From positions 1-43,236 of the forward strand of contig JACZQZ010000007.1 in the NCBI GenBank assembly GCA_022545455.1: a stretch of 43,236 nucleotides of DNA, written 5' to 3'. The notes beneath the pieces were generated by a model that saw only the letters and a program-made list of their open reading frames with translations, had not been told where the DNA came from and ran no database searches. Positions 20,861-28,761 of the stretch are shown in pieces (the stretch's first letter is position 1; each line of letters begins with the position of its first letter). Made by a program: the position numbers and the translations under genes. This stretch comes from Pseudomonadota bacterium (GTDB taxonomy: Bacteria > Pseudomonadota > Alphaproteobacteria > Rhodospirillales > 2-02-FULL-58-16).

Positions 20861-20992
20861 CTCCGGCGCCGCGCCCTTAGACTCCCCGAAAAAGTCCTGC
20901 TAACCGGCACCCGCCCGGCCATCGGCGGGATGCCCGCGCCGCCTGCCGGCACAGGTGGTGATAGCGCTTCCCCGCGCGCCGTGACCCCCGAA

Positions 20993-21143
20993 GGAACCCC
21001 GGAGGCACCATCCGCGCCCCGGCACGGTTGTGTAACCCCTCTAGGCGGGTCTCCCGGGATTCGGTATTTTAACGGTCGGGTTCCGCAACCAGGGGAACAT
21101 AGTGGAGGGAAGTATACGATGCCCGAAAAAGGAATCTACATCG
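20993..21143 (+). repeat. Duplicated promoter/5' leader, copy 1
   Basis: Aligns without gaps (offset 1627) to 22620-22770, about 150 bp with roughly a dozen mismatches by eye. Confidence 0.92.
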
Positions 21144-21193
21144 GGGGCAGGCCGGCGGGCGGACCGCTTCCGCAGGAGTGCCTACGGAGATGA
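21119..21193 (+). pseudogene. Internally deleted relic of the 22746 gene (24 codons), possibly now a coupled leader ORF
   Basis: MPEKGIYIGGRPAGGPLPQECLRR* versus MLEKGIYI...(33 aa)...RGGPPAGKSLKAF; in-frame at both parts. TGA overlaps ATG of the downstream gene (ATGA). Confidence 0.7.
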
Positions 21194-21882
21194 AGGCGTT
21201 CGTGCGAACGGCGTTGGTCATGGCGGCTCTCGGACTGGGTGCCGCGATGGCCGCACTGCCCACTCCTTCCCTGGGCGCGCGCGCAATCCCGAACGACGCG
21301 GACGTTGCGGAATTCACCATCATGGGACACCGCTTCCGCATCCCCAGGGTCTACCTTTCGGAATCTCACCAAGTCGTGGAACGCACCCCCGAATACAAGG
21401 GGGACTCGGTTCTCATGGAGGCCGCCCTGCCGGACCTTGTCCCCATCACCGAGCGGGACACCGATTACTACAAATGGGGCAAGGGTCGTTCCGACGTAAT
21501 CACCTTCCATATTTCGGCGGAGCCCGGCCATGCGGGACCGGACGAGGATTACTTCAAGCAAGATTACCTGAGGAAATGCGGCGGTCCGAAGAACGGGTAT
21601 CTGGTGTGCCCCCACAGATCTGAACTTTTCGAGCACCGTGAGGTTCTTGTGCGGGTTGAAGGGAAACGCAGGCTTGCCTTCGAATGCACGAAGGAGGGCG
21701 CCAGGCCCTCTCCCCACTGCAGAATAACTCTGCCACTTCTGGACAATGTCGAGCTCTATATCTCATTTTCGAGAAAGCATTTCGGCGATGCGGACCGCAT
21801 CCTCGCGCGGGTTTACGACCTGGTCTGCAGCTTCCTCGTGGCCGGCCCCGCGCGGGAACTCACCGTCAACCACTGCGACTAG
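21190..21882 (+). CDS. Secreted protein of unknown function
   Basis: Signal peptide MKAFVRTALVMAALGLGAAMAALPTPSLGA; no family recognised for the mature part. Confidence 0.75.
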   Translation: MKAFVRTALVMAALGLGAAMAALPTPSLGARAIPNDADVAEFTIMGHRFRIPRVYLSESHQVVERTPEYKGDSVLMEAALPDLVPITERDTDYYKWGKGRSDVITFHISAEPGHAGPDEDYFKQDYLRKCGGPKNGYLVCPHRSELFEHREVLVRVEGKRRLAFECTKEGARPSPHCRITLPLLDNVELYISFSRKHFGDADRILARVYDLVCSFLVAGPARELTVNHCD

Positions 21883-21900
21883 ACCAACCAAACGGAGGAT

Positions 21901-22068
21901 ATGTTGAAAAACGACACGGATTTACAGGCCGTCCTCGATCGGGGGAAGGCGTTGCTGGACAAAGGCGACGTGGCCGGATACTGGAACCTCATGTCCCGAC
22001 ACAGCGGCTTCGCCCGGCTTGCCGGGGACGTAGCGAGCGGCTCAGAGACCGATGAAAAGGGTGCTTAG
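21901..22068 (+). CDS. Small hypothetical protein (55 aa), possibly a truncated gene
   Basis: GGAGGAT ribosome-binding site, then MLKNDTDLQAVLDRGKALLDKGDVAGYWNLMSRHSGFARLAGDVASGSETDEKGA*; below the length threshold of the ORF track. Confidence 0.5.
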   Translation: MLKNDTDLQAVLDRGKALLDKGDVAGYWNLMSRHSGFARLAGDVASGSETDEKGA

Positions 22069-22563
22069 GACGACAACGCTGAGCATCCACACGAACACGC
22101 CGCTGAAAACCACCACGCCAAGCCGTCTTTCGAGGGACCGGCTGCCGAATATCAAGGAAAATTGCCGCGATCCCAGCAGCCGCGCCTCCAGGAAAATCAG
22201 GATCAGGGCGATCCCTCCCCAAATCAGAAAATGTGCGCCCCTTACATCGAAATGATACCTAAACGCCATAATCAACCCTGCGGTGAAGAGAAACGGCGCG
22301 GGAAGAATGAGTGCGCCGTGAAGAATAAACGTCGGCCGCCGGACATCGCGAATCGGCCGGCGCGAGAGGCGGCAGAAAAGCCAAAGATGGGCAACCATCG
22401 AGAGCAATAAAATAAGGACGAAGACGGTGAGCACGGAGTACAGCGGTTCCGTGGGCGAATCGCCAATCCACGCCGACCCGGCCCAGATCACTCCAACCCC
22501 GGTGGCCATCACGAACAGGAAAACCCAGGCCAGGAATCGCACCGGATCGCGTTTTCCCGTCAT
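22042..22563 (-). CDS. Hypothetical multi-pass membrane protein
   Basis: 173 aa with about 4-5 hydrophobic segments (FLAWVFLFVMATGVGVIWAG, VLTVFVLILLLSMVAHLWLF, FLIWGGIALILIFLEA, VVVFSGVFVWMLSVVVLSTLFIG). Confidence 0.7.
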   Translation of the reverse strand: MTGKRDPVRFLAWVFLFVMATGVGVIWAGSAWIGDSPTEPLYSVLTVFVLILLLSMVAHLWLFCRLSRRPIRDVRRPTFILHGALILPAPFLFTAGLIMAFRYHFDVRGAHFLIWGGIALILIFLEARLLGSRQFSLIFGSRSLERRLGVVVFSGVFVWMLSVVVLSTLFIGL

Positions 22564-22619
22564 CTTTTTTCCTTGAATTCCGATTGCCCCCTCCCGTCAC
22601 GCGCACCGCAACCGCCGAA

Positions 22620-22770
22620 TGAAACCCGGAGGCACCATCCGCGCCCCGGCACGGTTGCGTAACCCGTCTAGGCGGGTCTCCCGGAATTTAGTATTTTAAC
22701 GGTCAGGTTCCACAACCAGGGGAACATATTGGAGGGAAGTATACGATGCTCGAAAAAGGAATCTACATCG
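22620..22770 (+). repeat. Duplicated promoter/5' leader, copy 2
   Basis: See copy 1 at 20993-21143. Confidence 0.92.
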
Positions 22771-24200
22771 AAATCAAGTCGGTGCAATTGACCGATGACA
22801 TTGGCGTGTTCGGCAAACTGCATTCCTATCTGGTCTTTCGCGACGGCAAAGGCAATGCCCGCGTCATCCGCGGGGGACCGCCGGCGGGCAAATCGCTCAA
22901 GGCGTTTGCAAAGGCCGCCGCCGGCGGCGACATCGAAGTCCAGGCCGACGTTGCCTTGCAACGGTCGAAGGACAGATACGGACCCGACGACACGCCGCAA
23001 TCCCGCCATGCCCGCAAGCTGGACCTTGGCGGCCGTGAGCCGGAGGAAGTCTGGAAAGGCATGGTCGAAAGGGCGAAGGCGATCAACGGGGCCGAGATAG
23101 ACTATGACGTGATCACACAGAACAGCAATTCGGTGACGCGCGCGGCGTTGGAAGCGGGTGGCGTCGATCCCAACAAATCCATCCCGGCCGGCATCGATAA
23201 GGGCGACCTCACCGGGTTCGACAACGATCTCTCGAAGCCTAAAGATATTTTCGACACGATGTTCGACGAGAAAGACGACGAACCCCTGGACGACCCCAAC
23301 CTGGCTTCCCGGGACGATGGAGACGGCAAGGAAAAACGCACCGCCGTCTTCCGTGCCCGGCGCGAAACGGCCCTCACCCGGAAATTCGGCGCCGACGCCG
23401 ACGATCTAAGGAATTCATCTCCCGAGGCCCGCAAGTTCCTGGACGCCGTGGCCAAGCCCGGCAGCAAGGCCGATGAAATCCTCCTCAAGCCCGTCTCCAA
23501 ATGGACCGACGACGAACTCGGTGTGGTCATGGGCACCCGCCTCGACCTGCCGTCGGGCCACCCGGAGCGCAACCGGATGGCGGACAAGGAGACCGAGTTC
23601 TTCAAGCGCTTCCATAGCGCCGGCACGACCCCTCCCATCCCCAAGGACCCCACCCCGGCCCGGGCACCGGACGGCGGCGACTTGGCGTCCGCCCTCAGGC
23701 GCGTCGGCGCCCAAGTGGTGCGCGCCGCCGGCAGGGACGGCCTGCCGCCGGCGCTCCGCGACCTGCAGCGGGGCATCAACTTCAAGCGCGACGCGGCGTC
23801 GACGTTGACGGTGGACGGCGCCTTCGGCCCACGCACCCGTTCCGCGCTCAGGCGCGCCACGGCCGACCTGGGGTCGGCCGGAGTGGAGCGGTTGTTGGCG
23901 CTCGGGCGCTTCCATGGTTTCGCCGAGAACGCGGAGCGCGACGGGCCCGCCGGTCTCGAGGGCACCCTGGAGGCCGTCTTCGCGGGTTCGGGGCGCACCC
24001 GGGCAAGGCCCGTCGGGGCGCTCAAGCGCATGCTCAACGACCTGGGCCAGATCCACTTCGGCCGCGACGCCTGGAAGCCGCTCGACGACGGCGGGGGGCG
24101 GATCGGACCCGAGACCACGTCGGCCTTCGCCAAGGTCCTGCGGGCCGCCGGGCCGAAGCTGCTCACCGAGCGCTTCGGCCGCTTCCTGGGAATCCTCTGA
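22746..24200 (+). CDS. Hypothetical protein; papain-like/NlpC-permuted-looking N-terminal domain, C-terminal peptidoglycan-binding-like repeat units
   Basis: 484 aa; GGAGGGA ribosome-binding site. HSYLVFRDGKGNARVIRGGP...IDYDVITQNSNSVTRAALEAGGVD; C-terminus has LQRGINFKRDAASTLTVDGAFGPRTRSALRRA and LNDLGQIHFGRDAWKPLDDGGGRIGPETTSAFAKVL. Confidence 0.75.
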   Translation: MLEKGIYIEIKSVQLTDDIGVFGKLHSYLVFRDGKGNARVIRGGPPAGKSLKAFAKAAAGGDIEVQADVALQRSKDRYGPDDTPQSRHARKLDLGGREPEEVWKGMVERAKAINGAEIDYDVITQNSNSVTRAALEAGGVDPNKSIPAGIDKGDLTGFDNDLSKPKDIFDTMFDEKDDEPLDDPNLASRDDGDGKEKRTAVFRARRETALTRKFGADADDLRNSSPEARKFLDAVAKPGSKADEILLKPVSKWTDDELGVVMGTRLDLPSGHPERNRMADKETEFFKRFHSAGTTPPIPKDPTPARAPDGGDLASALRRVGAQVVRAAGRDGLPPALRDLQRGINFKRDAASTLTVDGAFGPRTRSALRRATADLGSAGVERLLALGRFHGFAENAERDGPAGLEGTLEAVFAGSGRTRARPVGALKRMLNDLGQIHFGRDAWKPLDDGGGRIGPETTSAFAKVLRAAGPKLLTERFGRFLGIL

Positions 24201-24411
24201 GCGGGACGGGTGGGGCCGCGCCGGGGCGAAGAAAACGGCGCGGCGCGGACCTACGCTTCGGCATCGTGACGGAAGCTGCTTGTGGCGAGCGCTGCGGCGC
24301 GGGCTTAGGGCACACGGCCCCAGGAAAAAGCGGGAGGTCAGGGGACTTACGCGCCCCCGCCCGGCGTAGCCGCTATCCGTTGAGGGCTCGCCAACCCCCG
24401 CAACCCCGCCC

Positions 24412-25137
24412 TCAGGCCATGTACTGGCCGCCGTTGACCGAGAGGGTGGACCCGGTGATGAAGCCGGCCTCGTCGGCGGCCAGGAAAACGACGCACCGGG
24501 CCACCTCTTCCGGTTCGCCCAGGCGGCCGACCGGAATGTAGGCGAGGATCTTGGTTTTCAGCACCTCTTCGGGCACGGCGCGCACCATTTCGGTGCCGAT
24601 GTATCCGGGCGCGACGGCGTTCACGGTGACGCCCTTGGCGGCGTTCTCCTGGGCCGCGGCCTTGGTGAAGCCGATGATCCCGGCCTTGGCGGCGGAGTAG
24701 TTGGACTGGCCGAACTGACCCTTCTGGCCGTTGATCGAGCTGATGGTGATGATGCGGCCGAAGCCGCGTTCGCGCATGCCCCCGATGACGGCGCGGGTCA
24801 TGTTGAAGACGCTGCTTAAGTTGGTGTCGATCACCGCCGACCATTGCTCGTGGGTCATCTTGTGGAGCGTCGCGTCCCGGGTGATGCCGGCGTTGTTGGC
24901 CAGCACCTCGACCGGGCCCAGGTCGGCCTCGATCCGGGCGACGGCCTCGGCGCAGGCGGCGAAGTCGCCGACATCGAACTTGTAGACGGGAATGCCGGTA
25001 TCGGCGGTGAAGGCGTTCGCGGCGTCGTCGTTGCCGGCGTAGGTCGCCGCCACGTTGTGGCCGGCGTCCTTCAGGGCCTCCGAGATTGCGCGGCCGATGC
25101 CGCGCGTGCCGCCCGTGACGATCGCTACACGGCCCAT
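24412..25137 (-). CDS. phaB: Acetoacetyl-CoA reductase
   Basis: SDR fold TGGTRGIGRAI, NNAGITRDATLHKMTHEQW, YSAAKAGIIGFTKA; adjacent to phaA. Confidence 0.96.
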   Translation of the reverse strand: MGRVAIVTGGTRGIGRAISEALKDAGHNVAATYAGNDDAANAFTADTGIPVYKFDVGDFAACAEAVARIEADLGPVEVLANNAGITRDATLHKMTHEQWSAVIDTNLSSVFNMTRAVIGGMRERGFGRIITISSINGQKGQFGQSNYSAAKAGIIGFTKAAAQENAAKGVTVNAVAPGYIGTEMVRAVPEEVLKTKILAYIPVGRLGEPEEVARCVVFLAADEAGFITGSTLSVNGGQYMA

Positions 25138-25223
25138 TCTATCCTCCTGTTTTTTTTGGAAAACCGTTCGACGAAATGTGTGCGGAGCCGCCGGGGCGCC
25201 GCGCGCTCAGATGTGCCCCGCGT

Positions 25224-26399
<1,176 letters not shown>

Positions 26400-26487
26400 T
26401 GGATGTCTCCTCGATCAGGATCCGCAGCGGTTGGTGCGCGGCGTGGCGGCCGTTATAGGGCCGCCCGGACGCCGAAACAAGGGACGG

Positions 26488-26502
26488 AATGCTGCACCGC
26501 GA
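26488..26502 (-). promoter_or_regulatory. PhaR-box-like site upstream of phaA
   Basis: AATGCTGCACCGCGA; half-site identical to the phasin and phaR sites. Confidence 0.35.
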
Positions 26503-26511
26503 AAAAAATTT

Positions 26512-27801
26512 TCAGGTCATGGCCGCCTTCAACCAGCGCGCCAGGGGTCCGTACAAAATCGTCGCCGCGCGGCCGCCGGCGACCATGCCGATATGGCCGG
26601 CGCCGAGCACCCGGCGCTCCGCCCGCGGCAGGGCCTCGGCGAGCGGCGCCGCCGACGCGGGCGGCACGATGTGGTCCTTGCCCGGGATCATCACCAGCGA
26701 CCGTGCCTGCACCTCGGCCGGCAGCACCGGCCGGCCGGCGATGCGCCAGGCGCCGCGCGCCGGCCTGTTTTCCACGTACCAGCCGACCAGGCATTCGTGC
26801 GCCACCGGCCCGGCCAGGGGCACCCCGTCGTTGAGCCAGTCCTCGAGGACGACGAAGTGGCGGGCCTTCTGCGAGCGCCCGTCCAGGGCGGCGAACCGTT
26901 GGAACTTGCGCGACGTGAGATAGGGGTCCAGGCTCATGAACATGGCCTGCAGGACATCCACCGGCAGGACGCCGAGATGCTCCATCATCATGGCCAACTG
27001 GGGCGCCATGGCCTTGAGCAGGCGGATCTTGCCCGTCTGGCCGGCGTGGAAATCCCACGGCGTGCCCATGAGGGCGAGCGCGGCGACCCGATCGGGCCTG
27101 CGCTGGGCCAGCGCCAGCGCCAGCAGACCGCCCATGCAGTAGCCGATGACGCCGGCCGGCCGGCCGGCCAGGTCGACGGCCGTGGCCAAGGCCGCTTCCA
27201 GACGCCCGGCGACGTAGTCGGACAGGGTGAAGGCCCGCTCCGCCGCGCCGGGGGCGCCCCAATCCACCAGAAACGGCCGGAACCCGCGCGCCGCCAGGGT
27301 GCGCACGAGGCTGCGTTTTTCGGTAAGATCCAGGATGTAGGCCCGGTTGATCAGCGACGGGACGACCACCAGGGGGACGCCGCCGGCCCCTGTCGCCGCG
27401 CCCGCGCCGTAGTCGAGAAGCCGCGTCGACCCCTCGCTCCACACAACGGGCGGATCGGCCGGCCGCGCCCGGCGGGCATGGCGGCGATAGGCCCGCACCC
27501 CGTCGGCGAATGCGCCGAGCCGCCGGCAGGCCTCGGCGTCGACGGCGCCCGCGAAGGCGTCAGGATCGACGCGGCCGAGATCCTCCCTTAGCGCCGCCGC
27601 GGCCTCGGCGAGTTCCGGCCTCCAGGGCAGCGACCCGCTTTTCAAGGGCCCCAAGGCGGCGCGCGCACTCAGCCAGATCATCGTCTGCAGCGCCACGTGC
27701 AGCGGCAGGGGCCTGGGCCCCGGGGGCACGGCCCGCGGCGCCGGAGGGGCCGGCGTCGGGCTTTTGCTTGGTGTCGGTGCCATCGCGTTTCGGGGTTTCA
27801 C
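26512..27801 (-). CDS. phaC: Poly(3-hydroxyalkanoate) synthase PhaC (class III-like size)
   Basis: Lipase-like GYCMGG, NRAYILDL, FLVDWGAPG, GKDHIVPP. True start uncertain (27801, 27783 or 27681). Confidence 0.93.
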   Translation of the reverse strand: MKPRNAMAPTPSKSPTPAPPAPRAVPPGPRPLPLHVALQTMIWLSARAALGPLKSGSLPWRPELAEAAAALREDLGRVDPDAFAGAVDAEACRRLGAFADGVRAYRRHARRARPADPPVVWSEGSTRLLDYGAGAATGAGGVPLVVVPSLINRAYILDLTEKRSLVRTLAARGFRPFLVDWGAPGAAERAFTLSDYVAGRLEAALATAVDLAGRPAGVIGYCMGGLLALALAQRRPDRVAALALMGTPWDFHAGQTGKIRLLKAMAPQLAMMMEHLGVLPVDVLQAMFMSLDPYLTSRKFQRFAALDGRSQKARHFVVLEDWLNDGVPLAGPVAHECLVGWYVENRPARGAWRIAGRPVLPAEVQARSLVMIPGKDHIVPPASAAPLAEALPRAERRVLGAGHIGMVAGGRAATILYGPLARWLKAAMT

Positions 27802-28000
27802 CGCCCTTTGCCGCGCCTTCGGGCGGCACCGTCGCGGACTGGGCCATGGAGGCGAAGGCGGCGGCGCCCGTATTCATCAACTCGATCGTCCGGGCCATGA
27901 GTTCGGCGACCTCGCGGTCCTCGGCAAGGCCGGCCAACTGCTCCTGCCAAAGGTCCAGGTACCGTTGGGCCAGCCCGTGCAAATCCGGAGGGTCCGACAT
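27560..28000 (-). CDS. Small PHA-synthase-associated protein (PhaE-like N-terminus plus coiled coil)
   Basis: MSDPPDLHGLAQRYLDLWQEQLAGLAEDREVAELMARTIELMNTGAAAF...LGALEKRVAALEAG; immediately upstream of and overlapping phaC. Confidence 0.7.
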   Translation of the reverse strand: MSDPPDLHGLAQRYLDLWQEQLAGLAEDREVAELMARTIELMNTGAAAFASMAQSATVPPEGAAKGGETPKRDGTDTKQKPDAGPSGAAGRAPGAQAPAAARGAADDDLAECARRLGALEKRVAALEAGTRRGRGGAKGGSRPRRS

Positions 28001-28063
28001 GGCCTTTCCACGTGTCCCGCGACAGTCATTATACCGCGCCCGGCGAGGGCGGGGGAAATTTCA

Positions 28064-28078
28064 CTGCAATGCAGCATT
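28064..28078. promoter_or_regulatory. PhaR box in phaC/phaR intergenic region
   Basis: CTGCAATGCAGCATT contains the exact palindrome CTGC-N3-GCAG. Confidence 0.65.
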
Positions 28079-28143
28079 TTCCGCGAGGCTTTTTTATGGT
28101 ACCAATGGCGGAGACGCGCAAGGCCACTTGGGACAACCCGGCC

Positions 28144-28761
28144 ATGGCTGACACTTCCCGGGGCGACGGTTCCGGTTCGGAAAAGACGCCGGTCACCATC
28201 AAGAAGTACGCGAACCGGCGCCTCTACAACACGGCGACCAGTAGTTACGTGACCCTTGACCACCTGTCGCAGATGGTCAAGGACGGCTGCGACTTTGTCG
28301 TCTACGACGCAAAGACGGGCGACGACATTACGCGCTCCGTGCTCACCCAGATCATCGTCGAGGAGGAATCGAAGGGACAGACCCTGTTGCCCGTCAGCTT
28401 CCTTCGCCACCTGATCAGCTTTTACGGCGACAGCCTGCAGGCCCTGGTGCCGCGCTATCTGGAATACAGCATGCAGTCGTTCGCCCGCAATCAGGAGCAG
28501 ATGCGTCATTACATGAGCGACGCCATGGGCGGCATCATGCCCTTTGCCCAGTTCGAGAAGATGGGGGAGCAGAACGCCGCCCATTTCGAGCGTGCCATGA
28601 AGATGTTCACGCCGTACTACGGCACCGAGGCGGCCAAGAAAAACATCGGTAAAACGGAAGAGCCCGAACCCCACCAGGAGCAGCTGGAAGAACTCCGTGC
28701 CAAGCTCAACCAGATGCAGGAGCAGTTGGACGCCCTGACCGGCAACGGCCGTGAATCCTGA
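28144..28761 (+). CDS. phaR: Polyhydroxyalkanoate synthesis repressor PhaR
   Basis: PVTIKKYANRRLYNTATSSYVTLDHLSQMVKDGCDFVVYDAKTGDDITRSVLTQIIVEEE. Start may be 28105. Confidence 0.95.
   Translation: MADTSRGDGSGSEKTPVTIKKYANRRLYNTATSSYVTLDHLSQMVKDGCDFVVYDAKTGDDITRSVLTQIIVEEESKGQTLLPVSFLRHLISFYGDSLQALVPRYLEYSMQSFARNQEQMRHYMSDAMGGIMPFAQFEKMGEQNAAHFERAMKMFTPYYGTEAAKKNIGKTEEPEPHQEQLEELRAKLNQMQEQLDALTGNGRES

Follow-up and report, generated by a model that had tools for sequence, protein, structure and literature searches.

Why does this locus carry two nearly identical gene leaders 1627 nucleotides apart, of which one opens a long gene and the other seems to open very little? In the window (the whole stretch of 43,236 nucleotides analysed here), the upstream leader had been predicted to drive a paralogue of the downstream 484-aa gene that decayed by internal deletion. 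Our results suggest a different history, to which we give a probability of about 0.68: effector-immunity pairs would have displaced one another by recombination via shared ends, and the repeat would be the 5' cassette of a mosaic locus whose leader was captured by a new effector.

The duplication itself is real. Pairwise alignment of 20973-21143 with 22600-22770 gives an ungapped direct repeat of 171 nt at an offset of 1627, with 91% identity, slightly longer than the predicted ~150 bp. The ribosome-binding site (RBS) and the first eight codons are common to both copies, and the downstream copy opens the 484-aa ORF, as the original prediction had it. The other direct repeats within the same 9 kb span 20-40 nt at 70-85% identity, and the leader repeat is far outside chance. 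Its parts are the following.

20973 to 21118, + strand: leader copy 1, with upstream box, putative promoter, 5' UTR and RBS GGAGGG; 91% identical to copy 2
21008 to 21027, + strand: conserved box CCATCCGCGCCCCGGCACGG containing an imperfect dyad (CCGCGCC-CC-GGCACGG); putative operator
21042 to 21070, + strand: putative promoter (TAGGCG - 17 nt - TATTTT), proposed from the sequence and the leader alignment
22591 to 22745, + strand: leader copy 2, the repeat within a divergent intergenic region, with an upstream flank of the type of this genome (G000)

In the leader alignment, the first hexamer of the putative promoter reads TTGACG in the copies of the sister genome G001; a scan for the sigma-70 consensus did not call a promoter in the leader. 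The genomes are metagenome assemblies, that of the window (G000) having 2.76 Mb in 191 contigs and 92.6% completeness. A search of related genomes for the leader, the check proposed with the prediction, revealed more copies in the genome itself, exactly one (C160:3281-3451), and in two sister species (n=3: G001 C31, G001 C25 and G002 C8). The three congeners G000, G001 and G002 have three, two and one full copies, respectively. A search of the seven other family genomes covered found no leader, and farther out there was a single short match of 32 nt (G037). The full leader is confined to these loci and is not a generic genome-wide repeat. At 0-1 mismatch, the 20-nt box is found only in the leader copies and at one phage terminase operon in each of G001 (C5) and G002 (C108). 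These operons encode phage-type small and large subunits and have the leader box and a TTGACA hexamer upstream, the part shared with the leader covering 37 nt (G001:C5 2155-2191; G002:C108 5631-5669). It is possible that leaders and terminase operons of the sister genomes respond to a common regulator.

What follows the leader differs between the two copies in the window.

21119 to 21193, + strand: mini-ORF of 24 codons (MPEKGIYIGGRPAGGPLPQECLRR, then stop), whose stop overlaps the next ATG (ATGA)
21190 to 21882, + strand: signal-peptide gene, 230 aa, predicted periplasmic, with six invariant cysteines; intact, with homologues in relatives
22746 to 22769, + strand: first eight codons of the 484-aa gene (MLEKGIYI), homologous to the start of the mini-ORF; 23 of 24 nt identical to the upstream copy

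The upstream copy does read MPEKGIYI joined to GGRPAGGPL, followed by PQECLRR and a stop. It was said to front only a relic, but an intact gene, overlooked in that prediction, starts at the very end of this reading frame. The mini-ORF (MPEKGIYIEGRLAGKPLPRERLRK and variants) is found without indels in five of the six leader copies, in three species, and in all five its TGA overlaps the start of a signal-peptide gene, an overlap kept across homologues as in a translationally coupled leader ORF. The downstream leader of the window is the only one to lack it, its first eight codons running straight into the 484-aa gene. Since the same 24 codons are present in all copies but the downstream one, the mini-ORF is an old and fixed part of the leader. 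We do not claim a functional peptide, because pN is close to pS: comparison of the five copies detected no purifying selection on the peptide, and variable sites number 8, 7 and 4 at codon positions 1, 2 and 3. The signal-peptide gene is under purifying selection (dN/dS about 0.3-0.5). Its homologues are found in G000:C160, G001, G025, G033, G034 and G043, and the six cysteines are invariant in 7 sequences. The signal-peptide genes behind the mini-ORF begin with MKAF and a hydrophobic stretch, and then belong to two unrelated types: a six-cysteine protein of 230-256 aa (window, C160, G001 C25) and one of about 363 aa that resembles a lipoprotein (G001 C31). The contig of G002 C8 ends soon after the start of the gene behind its leader.

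Could the mini-ORF still be what remains of a 484-aa paralogue, shortened first by an in-frame loss of about 33 codons and later by that of everything else but the leader? Several observations are in line with this. The native start of the N-terminal domain (N-domain) family of the 484-aa protein in other genomes, GIYxE, resembles that of the mini-ORF, the peptide is free of purifying selection, and the DNA of the mini-ORF tail, compared in frame with the long gene, outscores 97-100% of control comparisons. The matching stretch, GGPPAGKSL, sits in a window-specific insertion missing from the other seven members of the N-domain alignment. The DNA-level match is suggestive at most, and as protein GGRPAGGPL and GGPPAGKSL do not match significantly: the shuffle p is 0.07, 6 of 26 unrelated protein segments of the window do as well, and the mini-ORF copies of the sister species match the 484-aa gene at the level of noise (p about 0.6). 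Moreover, the form with the mini-ORF is found in three species and five of six copies, always overlapping the start of a signal-peptide gene that is intact in the window, whereas the fused form is found in one copy with a flank specific to G000. If the deletion happened at all, it predates the genus and is not the recent decay of a local paralogue. We find this reading doubtful. Conservation of start, stop overlap and length without indels across five copies could also betray a true regulatory leader peptide, or a 5' UTR acting as an attenuator or riboswitch on the signal-peptide gene. We regard such regulation as very unlikely, given that amino acids change as fast as silent sites. We rejected a riboswitch or structured leader on the basis of an Rfam search of the leader, which returned no family, and of a predicted structure weaker than that of shuffled sequences (z +1.6 and +2.1).

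Displacement of an effector, our preferred reading, draws on the rest of the locus.

21901 to 22041, + strand: stub, the first 47 codons of an effector-like gene (MLKNDTDLQAVLDRGKALLDKGDVAGYWNLM...), in an ORF that runs to 22068; homology to the long genes ends at 22041
22042 to 22563, - strand: polytopic membrane protein of 173 aa, encoded divergently to the 484-aa gene; its stop codon abuts the break of the stub
22746 to 24200, + strand: 484-aa effector-like gene; its N-terminal domain is variable, its C-terminal one shared

Comparison with sister loci, where the gene is intact, identifies this stub as the true relic of the locus. There is a decayed gene as predicted, but of another effector type and downstream of the signal-peptide gene instead of at the upstream leader. 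The 47 codons share 64% and 60% identity with the beginnings of two long effector-like genes, in G000:C160 and G001:C25 respectively, and the base that follows the end of homology, 22042, is the last of the stop codon of the antisense membrane gene. The locus has a truncated older effector directly after a retained partner gene, as expected in displacement arrays. The signal-peptide protein is a candidate immunity protein that would now be orphaned, in agreement with the order signal-peptide gene then effector-like gene observed in C160, G001 C25, G025 and G034.

The new module would have come with a partner gene of its own at the break. Proteins of 170-178 aa with 4-5 predicted transmembrane segments are encoded divergently upstream of the same effector N-domain in G001:C31, G018 and G023, and the 173-aa protein is a candidate for the immunity protein of the arriving module. 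In the effector-like protein, residues 1-163 form the variable domain (GIYxE...HSYLV...VIRGGP...QNSNS), with G5, E9, H26 and VIRGGP invariant in the alignment and QNSNS present in most members. The shared domain, from about residue 213 to 484, has a weak and partial Pfam match to PG_binding_3 (residues 337-383; 25.8 bits for a curated cut-off of 24.6). Neither the N-domain nor the signal-peptide and membrane proteins could be assigned to a family in Pfam, NCBIfam, PHROGs or PDB, and the structure models were of unusable quality (mean pLDDT 43 and 37). In G001 C31, the pair of membrane gene and effector stands behind a different stub, with a lipase-like motif (GHSLCGGQ) that Pfam did not recognise, after the leader-driven lipoprotein gene. 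The return of this anatomy of stub, membrane gene and effector in another species, with other sequences, speaks for a real displacement. A remnant of a module is also visible in G002:C9 (about 650-1220), where a truncated antisense membrane gene is joined to part of the shared 3' domain.

The effector-like genes are alike at one end and different at the other. Their last 260 codons keep 89-93% nucleotide identity between loci (dS 0.17-0.27), and their N-domains are saturated (dS 2.27) or unrelated. Old and new effectors have this stretch in common, residues 167-484 of the 484-aa protein being 79% identical in amino acids to the older type. A second shared block, the 5' cassette of about 240 nt, lies upstream of the variable modules and ends sharply. 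Between the upstream leader of the window with its gene (W_up) and the copy in C160, each 30-column window from -150 to +90 has 27-30 identical positions, and identity then drops to about half; between G001 C31 and C25, 25-29 of 30 are identical from -180 to +120, and the sequences are then unrelated. The original prediction had seen in the repeat a recombining accessory cassette. This view holds for the effector-like paralogues and for the leader kept while gene bodies change, but not for the decayed copy of the 484-aa gene.

The leaders cluster by genome and not by locus. The C160 leader is of the window type, 110 of 111 positions being identical to leader copy 1 from the box to the ATG, and its gene body is orthologous to that of G001 C25 (dS 0.13). 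The bodies of W_up and C160 have a dS of 0.94, even though their leaders differ at 1 of 111 sites. A tree of the six short leader sequences gives a bootstrap of 92 to W_up with C160 and of 98-100 to the two G001 copies. This clustering indicates copying or gene conversion of leaders within genomes. The downstream leader of the window shares its upstream flank with C160 (40 of 49 positions), compared with 17-20 of 49-50 for G001 and G002. The simplest reading of these sequences is that the arriving effector captured a leader of the G000 type through recombination at its GIYxE-like start. Because gene conversion could mimic capture, the direction of copying is something we can only infer.

These elements can be assembled into a model. 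The cassette would consist of the box, the promoter, a short UTR, the 24-codon mini-ORF and the first codons of the signal-peptide gene. It would normally start a transcript whose first real gene encodes a periplasmic candidate immunity protein, and ribosomes finishing the mini-ORF at the ATGA may restart on this gene by translational coupling. The next gene would encode an effector-like protein whose N-terminal domain varies and whose C-terminal domain is shared and resembles peptidoglycan-binding ones. In the window, a second module, made of the antisense membrane protein and a divergent effector with another N-domain, would have replaced the older effector downstream of codon 47. What remains of the older pair would be the signal-peptide gene, now a candidate orphan immunity gene, and the stub of 47 codons. 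In the divergent intergenic region, control of the arriving effector would have passed to a leader copy with its first eight codons, most probably through recombination at the similar start GIYxE.

Part of this pattern could instead be an artefact, if contigs were mis-joined at the near-identical leader or at the repeated 3' domain. In metagenome assemblies a near-identical leader of 240 nt could have been mis-joined, and the contigs C160, C84, C59 and G001:C31 end inside the 3' domain. The flanks also raise the question. Genes for DsbA and a NifU-like protein flank one effector locus in G001; in G000 these two flanks are apart, with DsbA on the window and the NifU-like protein on C84. Synteny with G001 and G002 breaks at 24404, just before a phaB-like gene (24412-25137, - strand), and at the matching site neither genome has an effector-like gene. 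Both the break and the differences from G001 in the flanks could stem from recombination that truly took place between effector loci, or from contigs mis-joined at the near-identical leader. Yet, the two leaders of the window are unlike in their flanks and at 9% of their sites, the order of stub, membrane gene and effector is found again, with other sequences, in another sister assembly, and that of signal-peptide gene and effector recurs in other genomes, which makes an artefact improbable. A more biological objection is that the effector proteins are lysis or tail parts of prophages, not toxins, and that the box is an element of phage late-type promoters. The box and first promoter hexamer do precede the terminase genes of G001:C5 and G002:C108, and in G043 a phage tail protein carries the N-domain of the older effector. 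We give this objection little credence: multiple N-domains paired with signal-peptide or membrane proteins fit effector-immunity pairs better, the effector proteins had no match among 50,697 phage records, and we saw no phage genes around the locus in the window. It is a long shot that the cassette is a mobile regulatory unit with a phage-type upstream element, by which unrelated immunity and effector genes would be co-controlled with the packaging operon of a resident prophage, and effectors made with, perhaps even carried by, phage-derived particles.

Directly downstream of the break in synteny, the window has a group of genes of polyhydroxyalkanoate type (24412-28761), with phaB-, phaA- and phaC-like genes recognised by eye and a PHB accumulation regulator confirmed by Pfam.

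Delivery by type VI (T6SS) or type IV (T4SS) secretion was considered and rejected. Searches of G000 (92.6% complete) found neither the sheath gene VipB nor VirB4, and among 60 relatives these genes are uncorrelated with the effector family. VipB is present in 4 of the 60, none of which carries the family. VirB4 is present in 8, overlaps only partially with the effector carriers, and was not found in G024 and G053, relatives that carry effectors and have near-complete genomes.

Effector-immunity modules are already known to displace one another, mostly in T6SS clusters. In Vibrio cholerae, sequential displacement of T6SS effector genes gives arrays of immunity genes (PMC5361080). There too, a new module replaces the old effector by homologous recombination via a conserved part of the gene, keeps the old immunity gene and may leave partial effectors. 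In contrast to V. cholerae, the conserved part of the effector is here the 3' end and the variable part is N-terminal, the stub and the orphan gene lie upstream, a cassette with promoter and mini-ORF is also shared, and no T6SS was found in G000. Polymorphic toxin systems (PMC3482391) likewise combine a constant carrier part, interchangeable domains and small adjoining candidate immunity genes, but what varies in the classical ones is the C-terminal toxin domain, and here it is the N-terminal one. A similar domain layout is that of the T4SS effectors of Xanthomonas type (XVIPCD; e.g. PMC6759196), with a variable enzyme-like N-terminal part, a conserved C-terminal part and an adjacent candidate immunity gene. 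Unlike them, our effectors had no database match to a known translocation domain, and VirB4 was not found in G000, G024 or G053. Orphan immunity genes and exchange of effector modules are also features of the Rhs effectors of Serratia and their exchangeable immunity proteins (PMC10539506). Those are T6SS modules, whereas here the constant part is PG_binding_3-like and no sheath gene was found in G000. The locus is ordinary in principle, as a case of effector displacement, and unusual in its shared promoter/mini-ORF cassette and its N-terminal variability. The process appears to be the same here, in a lineage in which no T6SS or T4SS was detected, and the cassette provides a second block of homology, at the 5' end. 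If our reading is right, the locus illustrates how an incoming module can acquire a functional promoter, and it draws attention to candidate domains for toxins, immunity and carriers that no catalogue lists yet.

N-domains of these effectors are also found joined to other proteins. On two Paracoccus plasmids (L107 3001-3435, L108 4001-4426), RTX calcium-binding repeats follow the N-domain of the 484-aa protein. This arrangement suggests type I export there, and a domain that is exported and can join different carriers. In G043:C27 (3883-6144), the N-domain of the older effector comes after its signal-peptide gene and continues into a phage tail protein (phrog_394, E 1.6e-49). A second tail protein gene follows the fusion, and upstream lie a lysozyme-like stub and another signal-peptide protein, in an arrangement that resembles a displacement array.
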